From Streptomyces sp. yr375 (lineage in GTDB: Bacteria > Actinomycetota > Actinomycetes > Streptomycetales > Streptomycetaceae): a stretch of DNA of 64,000 nt. How positions within the stretch are numbered: the stretch's first letter is position 1; each line of letters opens with the position of its first letter. Positions 58,788-64,000 of this stretch are shown piece after piece. The notes beneath the pieces were generated by a model, which saw nothing but the letters and a program-made list of their open reading frames with translations, was not told where the DNA came from and did not search any database. The position numbers were made by a program, and so were the translations under genes. The DNA lies in the NCBI RefSeq assembly GCF_900110755.1, contig NZ_FOFF01000004.1, positions 62,001 to 126,000 on the forward strand, given 5' to 3'.

Positions 58788-60104
58788 TCAGCCGATGGCT
58801 CGGAGCCGTTCGAGCAGCTCGGCGACGGGAGCTGTCTGCCTGTATTGCGACAGCTCCGGTTCGAGGTCGCGCACCATCGTCACGCACCTGGGCGCGTCGA
58901 TGCGGCCGGCCAGGTCGAGGGAACGGGTGGCCGTCGCTGCGGCGATCTCCGGTTCGCCGTCCCGGAGGTAGGTCTCGGCCTGGTAGGTCAGGAACACGGA
59001 CTTGGTCTTGGAACGGGTGGCGGTCAGCAGGGCGATGCCCTCGTCCATCAGAAGGTGGGCCTGGTGCCGCTGGCCGAGGTCCGCGAGACAACGACCGCTG
59101 TCCGCTGCAAGGTCGGCGTGCGACATCCACGAGCACCATGCGGGGGCGGGGTCGTACGACGGGGTGTCCAGGGCCTTTTCGGCGGCGGTGAGCGCCCGGC
59201 GGCACAGGCCGCCCTCGTCGAGCACGGCAAGGGCGCGGGCCTGGCGCAGGTGGAGGAGGGACTGCGCGGCGGGGTGCTGGGTGCGGGGGATGGCGTGTTC
59301 GAGGATGTCGGCCGCCGCGCGGGCGTCCTTGAGCCACAGCAGTTGGTACGCGAGGTCGGAGAGGATGCCCGCGCCGAGGTCGCGCTGGTGCGCGGTGTGG
59401 GCGTTGTGGAGCGCCGCGTGCCAGAAGCGGCCGGCCGAGGCGTGGCGCCGTTCGTCGAAGTGCTGCCAGGCGATGGCCTGCGAGAGGGAGGCGGCCAGGG
59501 TGTGCAGCCGCTGTCCGGCGGTGGGGGTGTAGCGGGACTCGCTGATTGATTCTGTGACGGTGGTCAGGTGCGCGTTGAGCAGATGGCGGGTGCGGTGCCT
59601 GCGTTCGGTGGCGAGACGGATCAGTTCTGCCCCGGTCTCCTCCAGCCAGTCGAGCATCTCGGCGTCGACTTCGCCGGGCACGGTGGAACGCGCGAACCGG
59701 CCGGGCTCGGTGACCGCCCACTGGTGAGCGAGAACGGCCAGCGAGCCGCTGGTGTAGGCGATGAACGACCGGCGGTCCAGGGAGGACATCAGGGCCTCTT
59801 GGAGTGACGGAACGGCATTCGGACCGAACGGCAGAGGTCTGTCCTGGCTGGGGAGCCAATAGGGCCAGCCGAGATGGGCGACGGCCGCGTAGTCGATGCC
59901 GAAGACCTCTGCGATGAGCGGCTGAGACTCGTCTTTGTCGGGGGTGGCCCAGCCTGTCTCCCACTTGGAGACCCGTGACCCCCGGGTGCCCGAGCGTAGG
60001 CCGCGGCGCTTGGCGGCCTGCCGGATGCGGCGGGCCAGCTCCTCCTGCGGCCATCCGCGCTCGTTCCTGGCGTGTGCGAGGGGGTGGCGCGTTTCGTCAT
60101 CCAC
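58788..60104 (-). CDS. XRE-family regulator with TPR-like C-terminal domain
   Basis: Putative regulator of the divergent small peptide cluster. Residues 1-65 hold a helix-turn-helix (LAHARNERGWPQEELARRIR, then RGSRVSKWETGWATPDKDES). The remaining 370 residues are helical-repeat sequence (YQLLWLKDARAAADILEHAI; LGQRHQAHLLMDEGIALLTA) as in actinobacterial pheromone- or peptide-sensing XRE proteins. GTG start at 60104; no better codon is in frame. Length 438 is normal for this group. Convergent with pncA. Confidence 0.82.
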   Translation of the reverse strand: MDDETRHPLAHARNERGWPQEELARRIRQAAKRRGLRSGTRGSRVSKWETGWATPDKDESQPLIAEVFGIDYAAVAHLGWPYWLPSQDRPLPFGPNAVPSLQEALMSSLDRRSFIAYTSGSLAVLAHQWAVTEPGRFARSTVPGEVDAEMLDWLEETGAELIRLATERRHRTRHLLNAHLTTVTESISESRYTPTAGQRLHTLAASLSQAIAWQHFDERRHASAGRFWHAALHNAHTAHQRDLGAGILSDLAYQLLWLKDARAAADILEHAIPRTQHPAAQSLLHLRQARALAVLDEGGLCRRALTAAEKALDTPSYDPAPAWCSWMSHADLAADSGRCLADLGQRHQAHLLMDEGIALLTATRSKTKSVFLTYQAETYLRDGEPEIAAATATRSLDLAGRIDAPRCVTMVRDLEPELSQYRQTAPVAELLERLRAIG

Positions 60105-60383
60105 CCGCCCATTGCACCACCCGATCCGCGCCCGGGAGAGCTGTTCGAGGAGACCGGGGATAGGGCGGGGACAGGGATCTCCTCTGTGCACCGCGACCTG
60201 TGGCCGCTGTACTCGTAGTGTTCCGCCCGACACCCTGCGTGATCGGGTGGAGCGCGGCGACGACCGTTCGCTATGGCCTTGTCCGCCCGCCGGGCTGCGT
60301 CTCCCGTCCGTGGGGCGAGGGCCGACCTGAGCTGTCACCACCGCCGTACGCCCGTCGTCACCGGTGCACAGGGAGGGGTTGCC

Positions 60384-60401
60384 ATGTCGTACGACCACTG
60401 A
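60384..60401 (+). CDS. Five-codon RiPP precursor gene: Met-Ser-Tyr-Asp-His (biarylitide-like)
   Basis: ATG TCG TAC GAC CAC TGA, 18 bases including the stop. The very strong site AGGGAGGGG (60370-60378) lies five bases upstream. A hairpin and a P450 gene follow at once. Met-x-Tyr-x-His pentapeptides next to a P450 define the biarylitide family of minimal RiPPs (precursor bytA, P450 cross-linking Tyr3 to His5). Here the leader would be Met-Ser and the core Tyr-Asp-His. The family examples I recall carry Met-Arg-Tyr-Tyr-His, so the Ser and Asp are unusual. It is far below the size limits of gene finders. Confidence 0.75.
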   Translation: MSYDH

Positions 60402-60415
60402 GCCCGCGAAGTCCT

Positions 60416-60447
60416 GGGCGGGCCCGTCCGATGAGGCGGGCCCGCCC
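60416..60447 (+). terminator. GC-rich stem-loop between the pentapeptide gene and the P450
   Basis: GGGCGGGCCCG (60416-60426) pairs perfectly with CGGGCCCGCCC (60437-60447) around a ten-base loop. No T-run follows. Such partial terminators or mRNA-stabilising hairpins set the precursor-to-enzyme ratio in RiPP clusters (inference). The 279 bases left of the precursor (60105-60383) hold the divergent promoters; none assigned. Confidence 0.65.
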
Positions 60448-60469
60448 TCCCGCTCCGGAAGGAACCGCG

Positions 60470-61638
60470 ATGCCATCCGTGACCGACCGTTACGACCCCT
60501 TGGACGCGGAGATCCTGCGCGACCCTACCCGGTGCTGGCCGAACTGCGCGAGTGTGAACCGGTGTTCTGGCACGCGGGCATGGGCTCGTGGGCGCTGACC
60601 CGGTACGCGGACAGCGTGCGGGTGCTGCGCGACCACGAGACGTTCGCCCGCGACCCGCGCCGCACCGGGGGCACGGTGCCCGAGCCGTCCTTGAGCGTCC
60701 AGACGCTCGACCCGCCCCAGCAGAACGCGGTGCGCTCCCTGTTCATGACCGCGCTGCGCGCCCAGGACCTGACCGGAGTCGAGGACCGTGCCCGCCTCCT
60801 GGTGCGCGAGCGGCTCGACCAGTTGGCAGGTGGGGGCCCGTTCGATGTGGTGGCCGAGATCGCGGTGCCGCTGTCCGTGGCGGTTGTCGCGGATCTGCTG
60901 GGTGTCGAGCCTCCGCCGTACGGGGAGTTCGCCGCGGTGTCGGACGCGATCATGAGGAGCATGGACGGCGGCCTCGATCCGGCGCTCGTCGAGCCGGGCC
61001 GAGTCGCCCGCCAGCAACTGAGCGACCTGGTCGACTCCTGGTTCGCGGCCTCGGCCCGGCCCGGCCTGCTGGCCCGGGTACGACAGGCCACGGCGCCCGA
61101 CGCTGACGCGCTGACCCGGCTGTACGTGAAGAACACGGCGCGGGTGATGTTCCAGGGCGGCTACAGCACGATGGCGGCCGCCATCGGCAACGCCGTCCAC
61201 ACCCTCCTCACCCACCCCGGGGAGTTCGGCCGGATGCGGGACCGGGAGCTGCTGGCCACGGGGGTGGACGAGTTGGTGCGCTTCGACGGTCCTGTCCAGG
61301 GCACCACGCGCACGGCGGTGCGCTCCTGCCGGATCGGCGGCGTCGACATTGCCCCCGGGCAGAAGGTCGTCCCGCTGTTCGCGGCGGCCAACCGCGACCC
61401 CGCCGCCTTCCCCGGTGCGGACGAGCTGGTGCTGGACCGCTCTCCGAACCGTCACCTCGGCTATGGCTGGGGTCCGCACTCCTGTATCGGGACGACCGTC
61501 GCCCAAGCCGGGCTGCGGGCCCTGGTCACAGCCATCAACGACCACCCGGCCCGGCCGGCCGCCGCCGGCGACGGCGTCCGGCGCCGGACGGCGACCATGC
61601 GGGCCTTCGACACTCTGCCCGCCACTCTCCTCGTCTGA
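60470..61638 (+). CDS. Cytochrome P450, interrupted by a one-base deletion near codon 19
   Basis: Predicted to form the Tyr-His biaryl bond of the pentapeptide. GGAAGGA precedes ATG 60470, which reads MPSVTDRYDPLDAEILRDP in one frame. From 60526 the next frame continues YPVLAELRECEPVFWHAGMG. One base is missing between 60525 and 60526; with it restored the protein has about 389 residues. P450 marks follow: I-helix FQGGYSTMAAA, ExxR as ELVR, and heme loop YGWGPHSCIG with its Cys at 61483. The site is not a canonical slippery heptamer, so sequencing error or real mutation are the options. A GTG at 60532 could restart but lacks a ribosome site. Confidence 0.83.
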
Positions 61639-61699
61639 TCCCTCGCCCGTCAGGGCTGCACCGCCAGGGGCTACCGCCCCCCGTCTTCAGGAGTCCGCT

Positions 61700-63106
61700 G
61701 TGCGCATCCTCATCGGCAACCACATCGATCCGTCCATCCGCGAGCGCGGCGACATGCGGGCCTGGACACAGCGTCTGTTCTGGTTCGCACGACCCGGTGA
61801 CCTGCTGATCCTGTGCTGCGAGCCGGACGCGGCGTTCGTCGACCACGCCCTGGCCCACACCGGTGTGAAGGGCGAGGAGCTGACCGTACTGGCGGCTCCG
61901 GCAGGAGCGTGGGGTGATCGGCTGCTCGATCCCGCCTCCCTGACCGAGGCCATGTTCGTGAAGCAGGTGCGTGCCGCGCTCGGTCCGGCCGGGGCCGGCG
62001 CGGTGAGCGAGGTGTTCGCGCTGTGGCCGTCCGCCGCCGTGGCACGGCTCGCCGATGCCTTGGGCGTGGCCGACCGCTTGCCGGGCGCGGCCTTCTTCGG
62101 GCAGGGTGGTGGGGAGATCGGGAACAACAAGGCGAACTTCCGAGCTCTCGCGGCGGCGGCCGGGGTGCCGACCCTGCCGGGCCGCATCTGCCGCAGCCGC
62201 ACCGAAGCGACGGAAGTAACCGGAGCACTGCTGGATCACTCCGCATCGGGGGCGGTTGTGGTCAAGCAGGCCCACAACGGGGCCGGGGTCGGCAACCAAC
62301 TGCTCGTCCGCGAGCCGGAGATGGCCGTGGACCACGTCGGGGCCCGGTATCTGCACCACCTGGCCCCGGGCCCGGACGGCATCGCCGCGTACTGGGCCGA
62401 GCGGTGGCTGTGGGCGAGCGGGAACGACCGGTGGCCGGTCGTCGTCGAGGAGTTCGCGCCCGGCGCCGACGCGGTGTACTCCGAGCACTACGCCGCAGAC
62501 GGCGGCACCCGGGCCACCGAAATGGGCCGCCTGCTGTACGTGGGGCGGCGACTGAGCCACCAAGTCGTGCCGCTGGACGGCGTCACCGCGCCGGTACGGG
62601 CGGCGCTGCTGAACGGCGGCACCCGACTGGCCGACGCCTACCGGGCATTTGGCTACCGCGGACACCTCAGCGCGGACGCCCTTGTCCTGCCCGACGGCGC
62701 TGTGGTGTTCACGGAGGTCAACGCCCAGGTCTCCGGGTCGTTGCACATCTACCAGTCGATCGCCCACGGCATTGTCGACGTCGCCGCCGCCCCTGCCCGG
62801 CAGGTGGTCGAGTACCACGTCCCACCCACTTGGGCGGTGCCCTCGTTTGCCGCCTTCCTGGCCGCGCTCGACGATCTGGGCCTGGCGTACGACTCCGCCA
62901 CCCGGATCGGAGTGATCGTGTCGATGCCCGCCATCCCCCTTGCCCCGGGGGAGCCGGTGCAGTTCGTGTTCTGCCTCGCCTACGACCCCGCCGAAGGCTC
63001 CGCGGGCACGTTCGACCGGCTCGACGCGCGGTTCGCGGCCGTGCCCGCCGGCACCCACGACGCCCGTCGGCACGTCGCCACCGGCGCTGTTTCCTTCTCC
63101 TCCTGA
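61700..63106 (+). CDS. ATP-grasp ligase (pre-ATP-grasp/PGM1-like peptide ligase type)
   Basis: Forms amide bonds via acyl-phosphate intermediates. Residues 1-110 look like a pre-ATP-grasp domain (ILIGNHIDPSIRERGDMRAW). ATP-grasp marks are GNNKANFRALAAAAGVPTLP, VVVKQAHNGAGVGNQLLVRE (nucleotide Lys), VVVEEFAPGADAVYSEHY and the metal site TEVNAQVSGSLHIYQSI (E339, N341). Length 468. The nearest family I can suggest is the peptide ligases like PGM1 of pheganomycin, but the call is by pattern. GTG start, GGAG six bases before it, 61 bases after the P450. Likely couples an amino acid or the tripeptide core. Confidence 0.78.
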   Translation: MRILIGNHIDPSIRERGDMRAWTQRLFWFARPGDLLILCCEPDAAFVDHALAHTGVKGEELTVLAAPAGAWGDRLLDPASLTEAMFVKQVRAALGPAGAGAVSEVFALWPSAAVARLADALGVADRLPGAAFFGQGGGEIGNNKANFRALAAAAGVPTLPGRICRSRTEATEVTGALLDHSASGAVVVKQAHNGAGVGNQLLVREPEMAVDHVGARYLHHLAPGPDGIAAYWAERWLWASGNDRWPVVVEEFAPGADAVYSEHYAADGGTRATEMGRLLYVGRRLSHQVVPLDGVTAPVRAALLNGGTRLADAYRAFGYRGHLSADALVLPDGAVVFTEVNAQVSGSLHIYQSIAHGIVDVAAAPARQVVEYHVPPTWAVPSFAAFLAALDDLGLAYDSATRIGVIVSMPAIPLAPGEPVQFVFCLAYDPAEGSAGTFDRLDARFAAVPAGTHDARRHVATGAVSFSS

Positions 63107-63121
63107 CCCGGGAACCTCACC

Positions 63122-64000
63122 ATGACCACCTCCCTCACCGCGGCCACCGAGGCCGCCCAGCTCTCCCCTGTCTTCGACTCCGGTCGGCTCGCCGCCGAAC
63201 TCGCCGCCGTCACCGCCCACACCTGGAACGTGCAACGCACCCACACCTACGGCGGGCAGGTCGGCCTGCCCGCCGCGATCGACTGGCGGGTCCTGCCCCT
63301 GCGCAGCCTCGGCGGCGATCCGGAACGCACCGATCCGGGCGGCCCCGGGCCGCAGCCGTTCGCGCCGACGCGCTGGCTCTCCCAACTGCCCTACCTCGGG
63401 GAGATCCTGGACTCGGTCCCGGCCCCGCTGAACGCGGTGCGGCTGATGGCGCTGGGGCCCGGCGCCGTCTCGGACCCGCACCGCGACCCCAAGTACCGGC
63501 TGGACCGCGGCATCGTCCGCCTGCATGTCCCGATCGTCACCGACCCGGCCGCCGTGCTGGTCCTGGACGGCGTCGAACACTGCTGGCAGCCGGGCGCCTG
63601 CTGGTACGGCGACTTTTCCCGCGAGCACCTGGTGCGCAACACCGGCACGACGGTGACCCGGGTCCACGTCGTGATCGACGCTCTGCTCACCGCTGATCTC
63701 GCGGCCTGGTTCCCGGACGCCTGGCAGGAACTCCTCACCCACGGCGAGGTCCTGTTCAACCGCACCGGCCCGGCCGGGGCTCCCGCCTGGCCCGGCGGGC
63801 TGCCGTACGAGGCGCTGCTGCCGTCCGGGTTCGCGGACTTCGACTCACCCGCCCCGCTGGACGGCTCCCTCATCCCCGCCCGCATCGTCCGCGACACCGA
63901 CGACGTCCTCGCTCTCACGGTCGCCGGGCGCACCTTCGCGCTTGTCCCGGTCGACAGCGCCGGGGAGTTCCGGTTTTCCGGCTGGAGCGAGCAGCGCACC
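63122..64000 (+). CDS. Aspartyl/asparaginyl beta-hydroxylase family protein (partial, runs off the window)
   Basis: Fe(II)/2-oxoglutarate dioxygenase of the AspH type. The 293 visible residues contain VRLMALGPGAVSDPHRDPKY (H120, D122), IVRLHVPIVTDPAAVLVLDG and WYGDFSREHLVRNTGTTVTR with the distal H169, matching the family order. The C-terminal part after about 200 is unassigned. ATG 63122 lies 15 bases after the ATP-grasp stop, so same operon. The precursor core has Asp at its middle position, which could be its substrate. The gene continues past 64000. Confidence 0.82.
   Translation, partial: MTTSLTAATEAAQLSPVFDSGRLAAELAAVTAHTWNVQRTHTYGGQVGLPAAIDWRVLPLRSLGGDPERTDPGGPGPQPFAPTRWLSQLPYLGEILDSVPAPLNAVRLMALGPGAVSDPHRDPKYRLDRGIVRLHVPIVTDPAAVLVLDGVEHCWQPGACWYGDFSREHLVRNTGTTVTRVHVVIDALLTADLAAWFPDAWQELLTHGEVLFNRTGPAGAPAWPGGLPYEALLPSGFADFDSPAPLDGSLIPARIVRDTDDVLALTVAGRTFALVPVDSAGEFRFSGWSEQRT

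Follow-up and report, generated by a model that had tools for sequence, protein, structure and literature searches.

The window analysed here is a stretch of 64,000 nucleotides of Streptomyces sp. yr375 (contig NZ_FOFF01000004.1, positions 62,001 to 126,000). Close to its end, an 18-base gene (ATG TCG TAC GAC CAC TGA, Met-Ser-Tyr-Asp-His) lies directly before a cytochrome P450 gene. The 18-base gene is probably (estimated probability 0.78) the precursor gene of a biarylitide-type ribosomal peptide, in which Tyr-3 and His-5 would be joined by the adjacent P450 and the product then capped.

A five-codon gene upstream of a cytochrome P450

The elements at the core of the locus are the following.

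60384..60401, plus strand: five-codon precursor gene, Met-Ser-Tyr-Asp-His (sequence, conservation)
60370..60378, plus strand: ribosome binding site AGGGAGGGG of the precursor gene (sequence; purine-rich counterpart in 28 loci)
60470..61638, plus strand: biarylitide-type cytochrome P450 (bytO homologue), frame broken at about 60526 (PDB matches, tree)

The GGAGG of the ribosome binding site ends 7 bases 5' of the ATG, and the precursor gene is located 68 bases before the P450 start codon (ATG at 60470, stop at 61638). With this site and its residues, the gene fits the biarylitide precursor pattern M-x-Y-x-H/Y/W. The nucleotide pattern ATG-NNN-TAY-NNN-CAY-TRA occurs a single time in the window and in none of 100 shuffles. 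Across 392 Streptomyces genomes, the stricter MxYDH pattern was matched 17 times, compared to one match for the reversed pattern. Twelve of the 17 matches, including that of the window, are situated in clusters with a relative of the window P450. Another one (locus L135, genome G116) is an intact MSYDH gene behind a truncated, decayed P450. Three matches (G164, G291 and G376) were judged by eye to be overlaps with the starts of longer frames; for G291 the overlap reading is less certain, as this match is also preceded by a ribosome site and a contig end is about 250 bases away. The remaining match is an orphan MAYDH gene with a strong ribosome site in L134 (G207, 8625, plus strand), with no P450 relative found within about 8 kb on either side.

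Conservation of the Tyr-Asp-His precursor

The first set of 48 loci was recruited via the ligase encoded next to the P450 and not via the pentapeptide, and the upstream scan accepted any aromatic pair at positions 3 and 5. An MxYDH gene was found upstream in all 27 of these 48 locus records with a P450 match above 300 bits. After removal of five duplicates between collections, these records correspond to 22 distinct loci, all of which carry MxYDH. The earlier note on this DNA, which described the 18-base gene with a good ribosome site before the P450 and named loci with the P450 lacking the pentapeptide as its refutation, is thus supported on this point; the fragmentary loci L112 (G307) and L113 (G122), with remnants of P450 and ligase, are without a pentapeptide. 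Five remoter members of the P450 clade keep the precursor elsewhere in the cluster or in the form MRYDHCL.

A scan restricted to 600 bp upstream found no two-aromatic pentapeptide for 15 of 37 P450 relatives. Among these, L077, L078 and L083 have MxYDH elsewhere in the cluster, L060 has MRYND, four have MKYWH adjoining the P450 and two have MRYLH farther away; the remainder are L088, L089 and L092 to L094. Eight other P450 loci of the same genome (L001 to L008) include two that match the P450 query, neither of them with a pentapeptide within 600 bp upstream.

The final set comprised 28 distinct Tyr-Asp-His loci, for which the collecting script demanded a purine-rich site and fixed residues at codons 3 to 5. 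Codons 3 to 5 are 99.2% identical in this set, compared to 54% for codon 2 and 41% and 40% for the 40-base flanks; since the residues were fixed, the information in this figure lies only in the third positions and in the difference from the flanks. Codon 2 encodes Ser (as TCG, TCC or AGC), Phe, Thr, Gly or Arg, the Tyr codon is TAC or TAT, and the stop codon is TGA or TAA. Judged by its conservation in the loci recruited via the ligase, the five-codon frame is a genuine gene. In L056 (6716, plus strand; Catelliglobosispora koreensis), the start codon of the precursor gene is GTG.

The position and length of the precursor gene vary in several clusters. MSYDH is encoded 3' of the P450 gene in L099 (G193, 9106, plus strand) and L100 (G361, 7838, minus strand), and in L097 (G311, 8463, plus strand) an MTYDH gene follows the ligase gene, one gene and about 1.7 kb before the P450. 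Residues and ribosome site are kept in all three. L099 and L100 encode no Pgm1-type ligase and no amidinotransferase, even with 5 to 10 kb of extra flank on each side. Two of the 28 loci extend past His to Cys-Leu-stop, with L095 (G208, 13086, minus strand) and L096 (G046, 12937, minus strand) encoding the seven-residue precursor MRYDHCL. The clusters of L095 and L096 also encode a Pgm1-type ligase, a ligase of the L-amino-acid ligase (LAL) type and a pyridoxal-phosphate enzyme, as well as, in L095, a methyltransferase identified by Pfam. In L098 (G638:C1:1484001-1500000, minus strand, 9145), MRYND with a ribosome-like site precedes a P450 that is sister to the Tyr-Asp-His clade; the fifth residue is not aromatic. 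L097 harbors a prolyl aminopeptidase gene (TIGR01249, above cut-off) and L100 a similar-looking gene, as judged by eye. These aminopeptidase-like enzymes could strip two leader residues.

The P450 and its reading frame

The P450 matches PDB entry 8u2m (P450Blt) with an E value of 1.2e-68 and the RufO entries with about 6e-76. Its nearest solved structures include RufO (8spp, 9duj, 9eby) and P450Blt (8u2m), as these entries are identified in PMC12186263; both enzymes bind MRYLH pentapeptides. A tree was calculated from 44 of 64 extracted P450s (15 duplicates and 5 near-copies removed) and 4 outgroups. All 28 Tyr-Asp-His P450s fall into a single clade (99/94), with the MRYND enzyme as sister and the MRYAY enzymes next, and Tyr-Asp-His arises by one change in 98% of the bootstrap trees. 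Structure matches and tree place the window enzyme within the biarylitide (BytO) P450 family and not among unrelated families, as had been anticipated in the earlier note.

The I-helix residues corresponding to His235, Glu239 and Val240 of RufO are Gln, Ser and Thr (RVMFQGGYST) in 23 distinct canonical Tyr-Asp-His P450s, and the five other enzymes, which belong to relocated or extended precursors, have FNAS(Y/F)(G/S)T. I-helix positions are reported to control specificity in P450Blt (PMC10929621). The canonical motif is nearer to those of the MRYAY (RVLFLAGFST) and MRYYH (RQILVAGFSS) enzymes than to the HAGYES types; Ser in place of Glu and the missing His are common to the Tyr-Asp-His, MRYAY and MRYYH P450s. 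According to the text of PMC13417212, SlyP, which uses MRYAY, makes carbon-carbon links and the link in biarylitide YYH is a carbon-carbon bond. A carbon-carbon Tyr-His bond is therefore predicted for the Tyr-Asp-His clade.

Compared to all 21 aligned relatives, the window P450 has a 1-base deletion at about 60526 (about codon 19), which was overlooked in the earlier note. Along 8 kb aligned with two relatives, no other gap within a gene breaks the frame; a gap of 11 + 2 bases, which also changes the frame, fuses the LAL and methyltransferase genes, separate in both relatives, into one open frame. The missing base falls in a run of C, where reads also err, and the deletion is either a sequencing error or a recent lesion. 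It lowers confidence that this copy is functional but leaves the assignment of the parts to their families untouched.

Cluster extent and neighbouring genes

The other genes of the cluster are listed below; those past the window end were read from the genome locus (L009, G000:C45) and are given in window numbering.

58788..60104, minus strand: NsdA-family XRE/TPR regulator, divergent from the precursor gene (NCBIfam NF053720, E 9.5e-92)
61700..63106, plus strand: Pgm1-type ATP-grasp peptide ligase (PDB 3wvq, PGM1, E 4.6e-72; PreAtp-grasp PF18604)
63122..64099, plus strand (window ends at 64000): aspartyl/asparaginyl beta-hydroxylase homologue (PF05118, E 3.5e-13)
64134-65285, plus strand, past the window: amidinotransferase (PDB 1bwd, inosamine-phosphate amidinotransferase, E 1.6e-46)
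65282-67381, plus strand, past the window: ATP-grasp/LAL-type ligase fused to a methyltransferase (LAL_C2, E 6e-20)
67421-68413, minus strand, past the window, divergent: APH-type kinase (PF01636, E 1.7e-15)

The cluster thus runs about 4.4 kb beyond the window end, and all its genes other than the P450 gene are open frames. The earlier note had described a biarylitide-like cluster enlarged by an XRE regulator, an ATP-grasp ligase and an Asp/Asn hydroxylase, which holds within the window but leaves out the genes beyond it. The designation as a minimal cluster is rejected in view of the three genes past the window end, which encode an amidinotransferase, a second ATP-grasp ligase carrying a methyltransferase domain, and a kinase.

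The gene order precursor, P450, ligase, hydroxylase, amidinotransferase, LAL-type ligase and divergent kinase is found in Streptomyces, Actinacidiphila, Kineosporia and Actinokineospora; Saccharothrix and Catelliglobosispora have the same order minus the hydroxylase. Only some of these clusters have retained the NsdA-type regulator at the front. Of the 18 loci L040 to L057, 9 have a relative of it with 55-91% identity at the corresponding position, as do L103 and L104. Two more loci have relatives with 25-27% identity; elsewhere another regulator, none or a contig end was found. The cluster genes scanned encode no peptidase, no nitric oxide synthase and no phenylglycine-building enzymes (type III polyketide synthase set). 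In 5 of the 28 clusters (L048:12875-13879, L054, L055, L056 and L105), a protein of about 330 residues is encoded between the LAL-type ligase and the kinase; the one member scanned had no Pfam or NCBIfam match. Hydroxylase and amidinotransferase share one open frame of 709 residues in L052 (9414-11543).

Ligases and further tailoring enzymes

Tailoring genes were counted with profiles built here, partly from the same Tyr-Asp-His loci, at a cut-off of 60 bits. Controls were 20 of 34 biarylitide-type loci with a P450 match and without Tyr-Asp-His (tandem pairs counted once). In 19 of these 20 a short frame was recognised, sometimes several kb off, and one control was only 5 kb long. An LAL-type ATP-grasp enzyme was found in all 28 Tyr-Asp-His loci (23 of type A, 5 of type B) and in none of the 20 controls. 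The Pgm1-type ligase (26/28) and the amidinotransferase (26/28, 2 of them weak) were likewise absent from all 20 controls, whereas the hydroxylase (21/28, once in a single frame with the amidinotransferase) was present in two of them. A kinase is encoded in 23 of the 28 loci. Amidinotransferase and Pgm1-type ligase are all-or-none: 26 loci have both, including the two with a weak amidinotransferase, and two have neither.

The window ligase is a PGM1-like peptide ligase of the pheganomycin type. Five other Streptomyces clusters encode a Pgm1-type ligase with 34-38% identity and an adjoining amidinotransferase with 57-61% identity; four of them (L107 to L110) hold a gene set which we take to build dihydroxyphenylglycine. 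Known catalytic motifs are retained in the ligase, amidinotransferase and hydroxylase rows inspected. Trees of the ligase and the amidinotransferase each included 24 of the 26 Tyr-Asp-His loci and the 5 pheganomycin-type clusters. The Tyr-Asp-His ligases split cleanly from the pheganomycin-type ones (100/100), which argues against recent borrowing; the L097 ligase has no firm place. In the amidinotransferase tree, 22 of the 24 Tyr-Asp-His sequences form one group (100/100) beside the pheganomycin-type enzymes, and those of L095 and L096 are located far apart. In pheganomycin, PGM1 works as an acylating enzyme on peptide N-termini (PMC8359417) and attaches a guanidinoacetic acid derivative (PMC8939145).

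Proposed route and alternative explanations

Observed are the five-codon gene with its conservation, the order of the genes, their homologies and the clade of the P450s; every chemical step is inferred. Translation of 60384-60401 would give MSYDH. The P450 would then link Tyr and His by a biaryl bond, for which a carbon-carbon type is more probable than a carbon-nitrogen type. A peptidase from outside the scanned cluster genes would cut off Met-Ser. A guanidino acid would be supplied by the amidinotransferase and then attached by the Pgm1-type ligase to the amino group of Tyr exposed by this cleavage, in the manner of PGM1 in pheganomycin. The LAL-type ATP-grasp enzyme might form a further amide, at best guess at the Asp-4 side-chain carboxylate or the C-terminus. 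Further decoration may come from the Asp/Asn hydroxylase and, in part of the strains, from a methyltransferase, and the APH-type kinase is a candidate for self-resistance. If the deletion is real, the pathway of this strain would stop at the P450. The kinase in 23 of 28 loci hints at a bioactive product. It is an unlikely extension that the Tyr-Asp-His biarylitides are a distinct capped class with two ligase-made amides (an N-terminal guanidino-acyl cap and an amide at Asp-4 or the C-terminus made by the LAL-type enzyme) and a kinase protecting the producer; such a branch would, if real, be the first among the biarylitides to have an antibiotic function built in.

Several points weigh against this route as a whole or against parts of it. 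The window's own P450 is frame-broken as assembled, and the peptidase the route calls for was not found among the scanned cluster genes. The association between Asp-4 and the LAL-type ligase stems from one P450 clade, so that the counts are not independent and may reflect common descent. Identity between LAL types A and B is only about 24-31%, the LAL-type enzyme of L100 matches the type A profile weakly, and the types may not be one lineage. The comparison covered 20 of the 34 listed control loci, with profiles that partly derive from the Tyr-Asp-His loci themselves. L095 and L096 have a poor amidinotransferase match (27%, 141-142 bits), and their sequences branch separately from all the rest. 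The product isolated for the published sav cluster bears no sign of action by the amidinotransferase or the hydroxylase encoded there (PMC13417212). The hydroxylase is absent from 7 of the 28 loci and present in MRYAY and MRYLH loci without Asp (two of the 20 controls), and the published MRYVH cluster also holds one (PMC13417212); its target therefore need not be Asp-4, and action on Asp-4 was dropped as an established step.

Other explanations differ in what they take the five-codon frame, the P450 or the ligases to do. As a cis-acting leader or translational coupler of the P450 gene, the frame would be suitably placed, with its good ribosome site and short distance to the P450 start. The precursor genes that are conserved despite lying 3' of the P450 (L099, L100) or a gene away (L097) argue for a product rather than a leader, and conservation is confined to residues 3 to 5 while codon 2 and the flanks vary; this explanation is barely credible and was rejected. 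A RufO-like route, with nitration of Tyr-3 by the P450 and cleavage of the peptide to free a building block, would agree with the RufO entries among the nearest solved structures. It is very improbable and was likewise rejected: the scanned cluster genes include no nitric oxide synthase, the RufO-type I-helix AGFEV is absent, and the two sampled P450s that have AGFEV, encoded near MRYLH genes, fall outside the clade. That the P450 oxidises the peptide without a cross-link, for example by hydroxylation, and the product is a linear capped Tyr-Asp-His peptide, is improbable. The I-helix does differ from P450Blt and RufO at positions reported to be decisive (mapped via RufO and HAGYES-type relatives) with loss of the acidic residue, RufO shows that the family has already changed its reaction, and in the text consulted PMC13417212 describes no Asp-4 member as tested. 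The same Ser replacement is, however, found in MRYYH and MRYAY enzymes, whose published relatives cross-link, and both aromatic residues are kept in 22 distinct loci, which an oxidation of one residue would not need.

Two further explanations concern the state of this copy and the role of the ligases. It is somewhat unlikely that the cluster of this strain is a decaying remnant with a P450 pseudogene and a left-over pentapeptide gene, which would not conflict with the biarylitide assignment. The one-base deletion against all 21 aligned relatives and the decayed copies elsewhere (P450 and ligase fragments in G307 and G122; in G116, an intact MSYDH gene behind a truncated P450) speak for decay; the remaining genes are open, the gap is the only one to break a frame within a gene along the 8 kb compared, and it lies in a C run prone to read errors. 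Possible, if doubtful, is a functional tie of Asp-4 to the Pgm1 ligase itself, with the LAL-type ligase as a bystander. The 47 clusters reported in PMC13417212 to pair Pgm1 with Asp-4, and 26 of 28 loci here, would fit this, but L099 and L100 keep Tyr-Asp-His and the LAL-type ligase without the Pgm1-type ligase or the amidinotransferase.

Comparison with known systems

A study of July 2026 (PMC13417212) describes 277 clusters, among them the 47 just mentioned, and suggests an integration of the latter with pheganomycin biosynthesis. The window cluster, which combines Asp-4 with a Pgm1 ligase homologue, is a new member of this published subgroup. It shares the five-codon precursor (Tyr-3, Asp-4, aromatic residue 5), the BytO-type P450 and the Pgm1-type ligase, and no difference in kind from the subgroup as described in the text was established. 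The main text of that study does not contain "amino acid ligase" or "phosphotransferase", and it mentions "amidinotransferase" once, for the sav cluster. The graphic of its Figure 2 and its Table S1 lay outside the comparison, and the extra genes (amidinotransferase, LAL-type ligase, kinase) are not claimed to be unpublished. Added here are the pairing of Pgm1-type ligase and amidinotransferase, the link of the LAL-type ligase to Tyr-Asp-His, the relocation of the precursor gene and the kinase in 23 of 28 loci. Literature searches for MSYDH gave only matches unrelated by title, and those for a P450 with a pentapeptide RiPP (ribosomally synthesised and post-translationally modified peptide) and YDH gave none; biarylitide with amidinotransferase returned PMC13417212 alone, and with ATP-grasp one further paper.

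The RufO route of rufomycin has an 18-base precursor gene and a related P450 in common with the window cluster and differs in its I-helix, its tree branch and the nitric oxide synthase, of which none was found here. Pheganomycin shares the Pgm1-type ligase, and the amidinotransferase of the window cluster is close to those adjoining such ligases; the window cluster differs by its five-residue precursor, its biarylitide-family P450 and the lack of phenylglycine-building genes. The systems of biarylitides YYH and YVH (sav), P450Blt (MRYLH) and SlyP (MRYAY) share the MxYx(H/Y) precursor and the P450 family, and the sav cluster also has an amidinotransferase and an Asp/Asn hydroxylase. The window cluster is set apart from them by Asp-4, two ATP-grasp ligases, the kinase and the clade-specific I-helix RVMFQGGYST.

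Biarylitide genes have been called the smallest known, and the cross-linked tripeptide tested showed no activity against bacteria or fungi and no cytotoxicity, which agrees with earlier studies; possible effects of related peptides on plants are mentioned (PMC13417212). With two ligases, an amidinotransferase and usually a kinase in the clusters, the role of these peptides becomes directly testable, and the plain tripeptide may be a scaffold only. The same study reports separation of precursor and P450 as unique to the MRYWY clade of its data set. The relocated precursors in L097, L099 and L100 indicate that the Tyr-Asp-His clade may be an exception to this uniqueness. For genome mining this is relevant, since a Tyr-Asp-His precursor may be located 3' of its P450 or a gene away.

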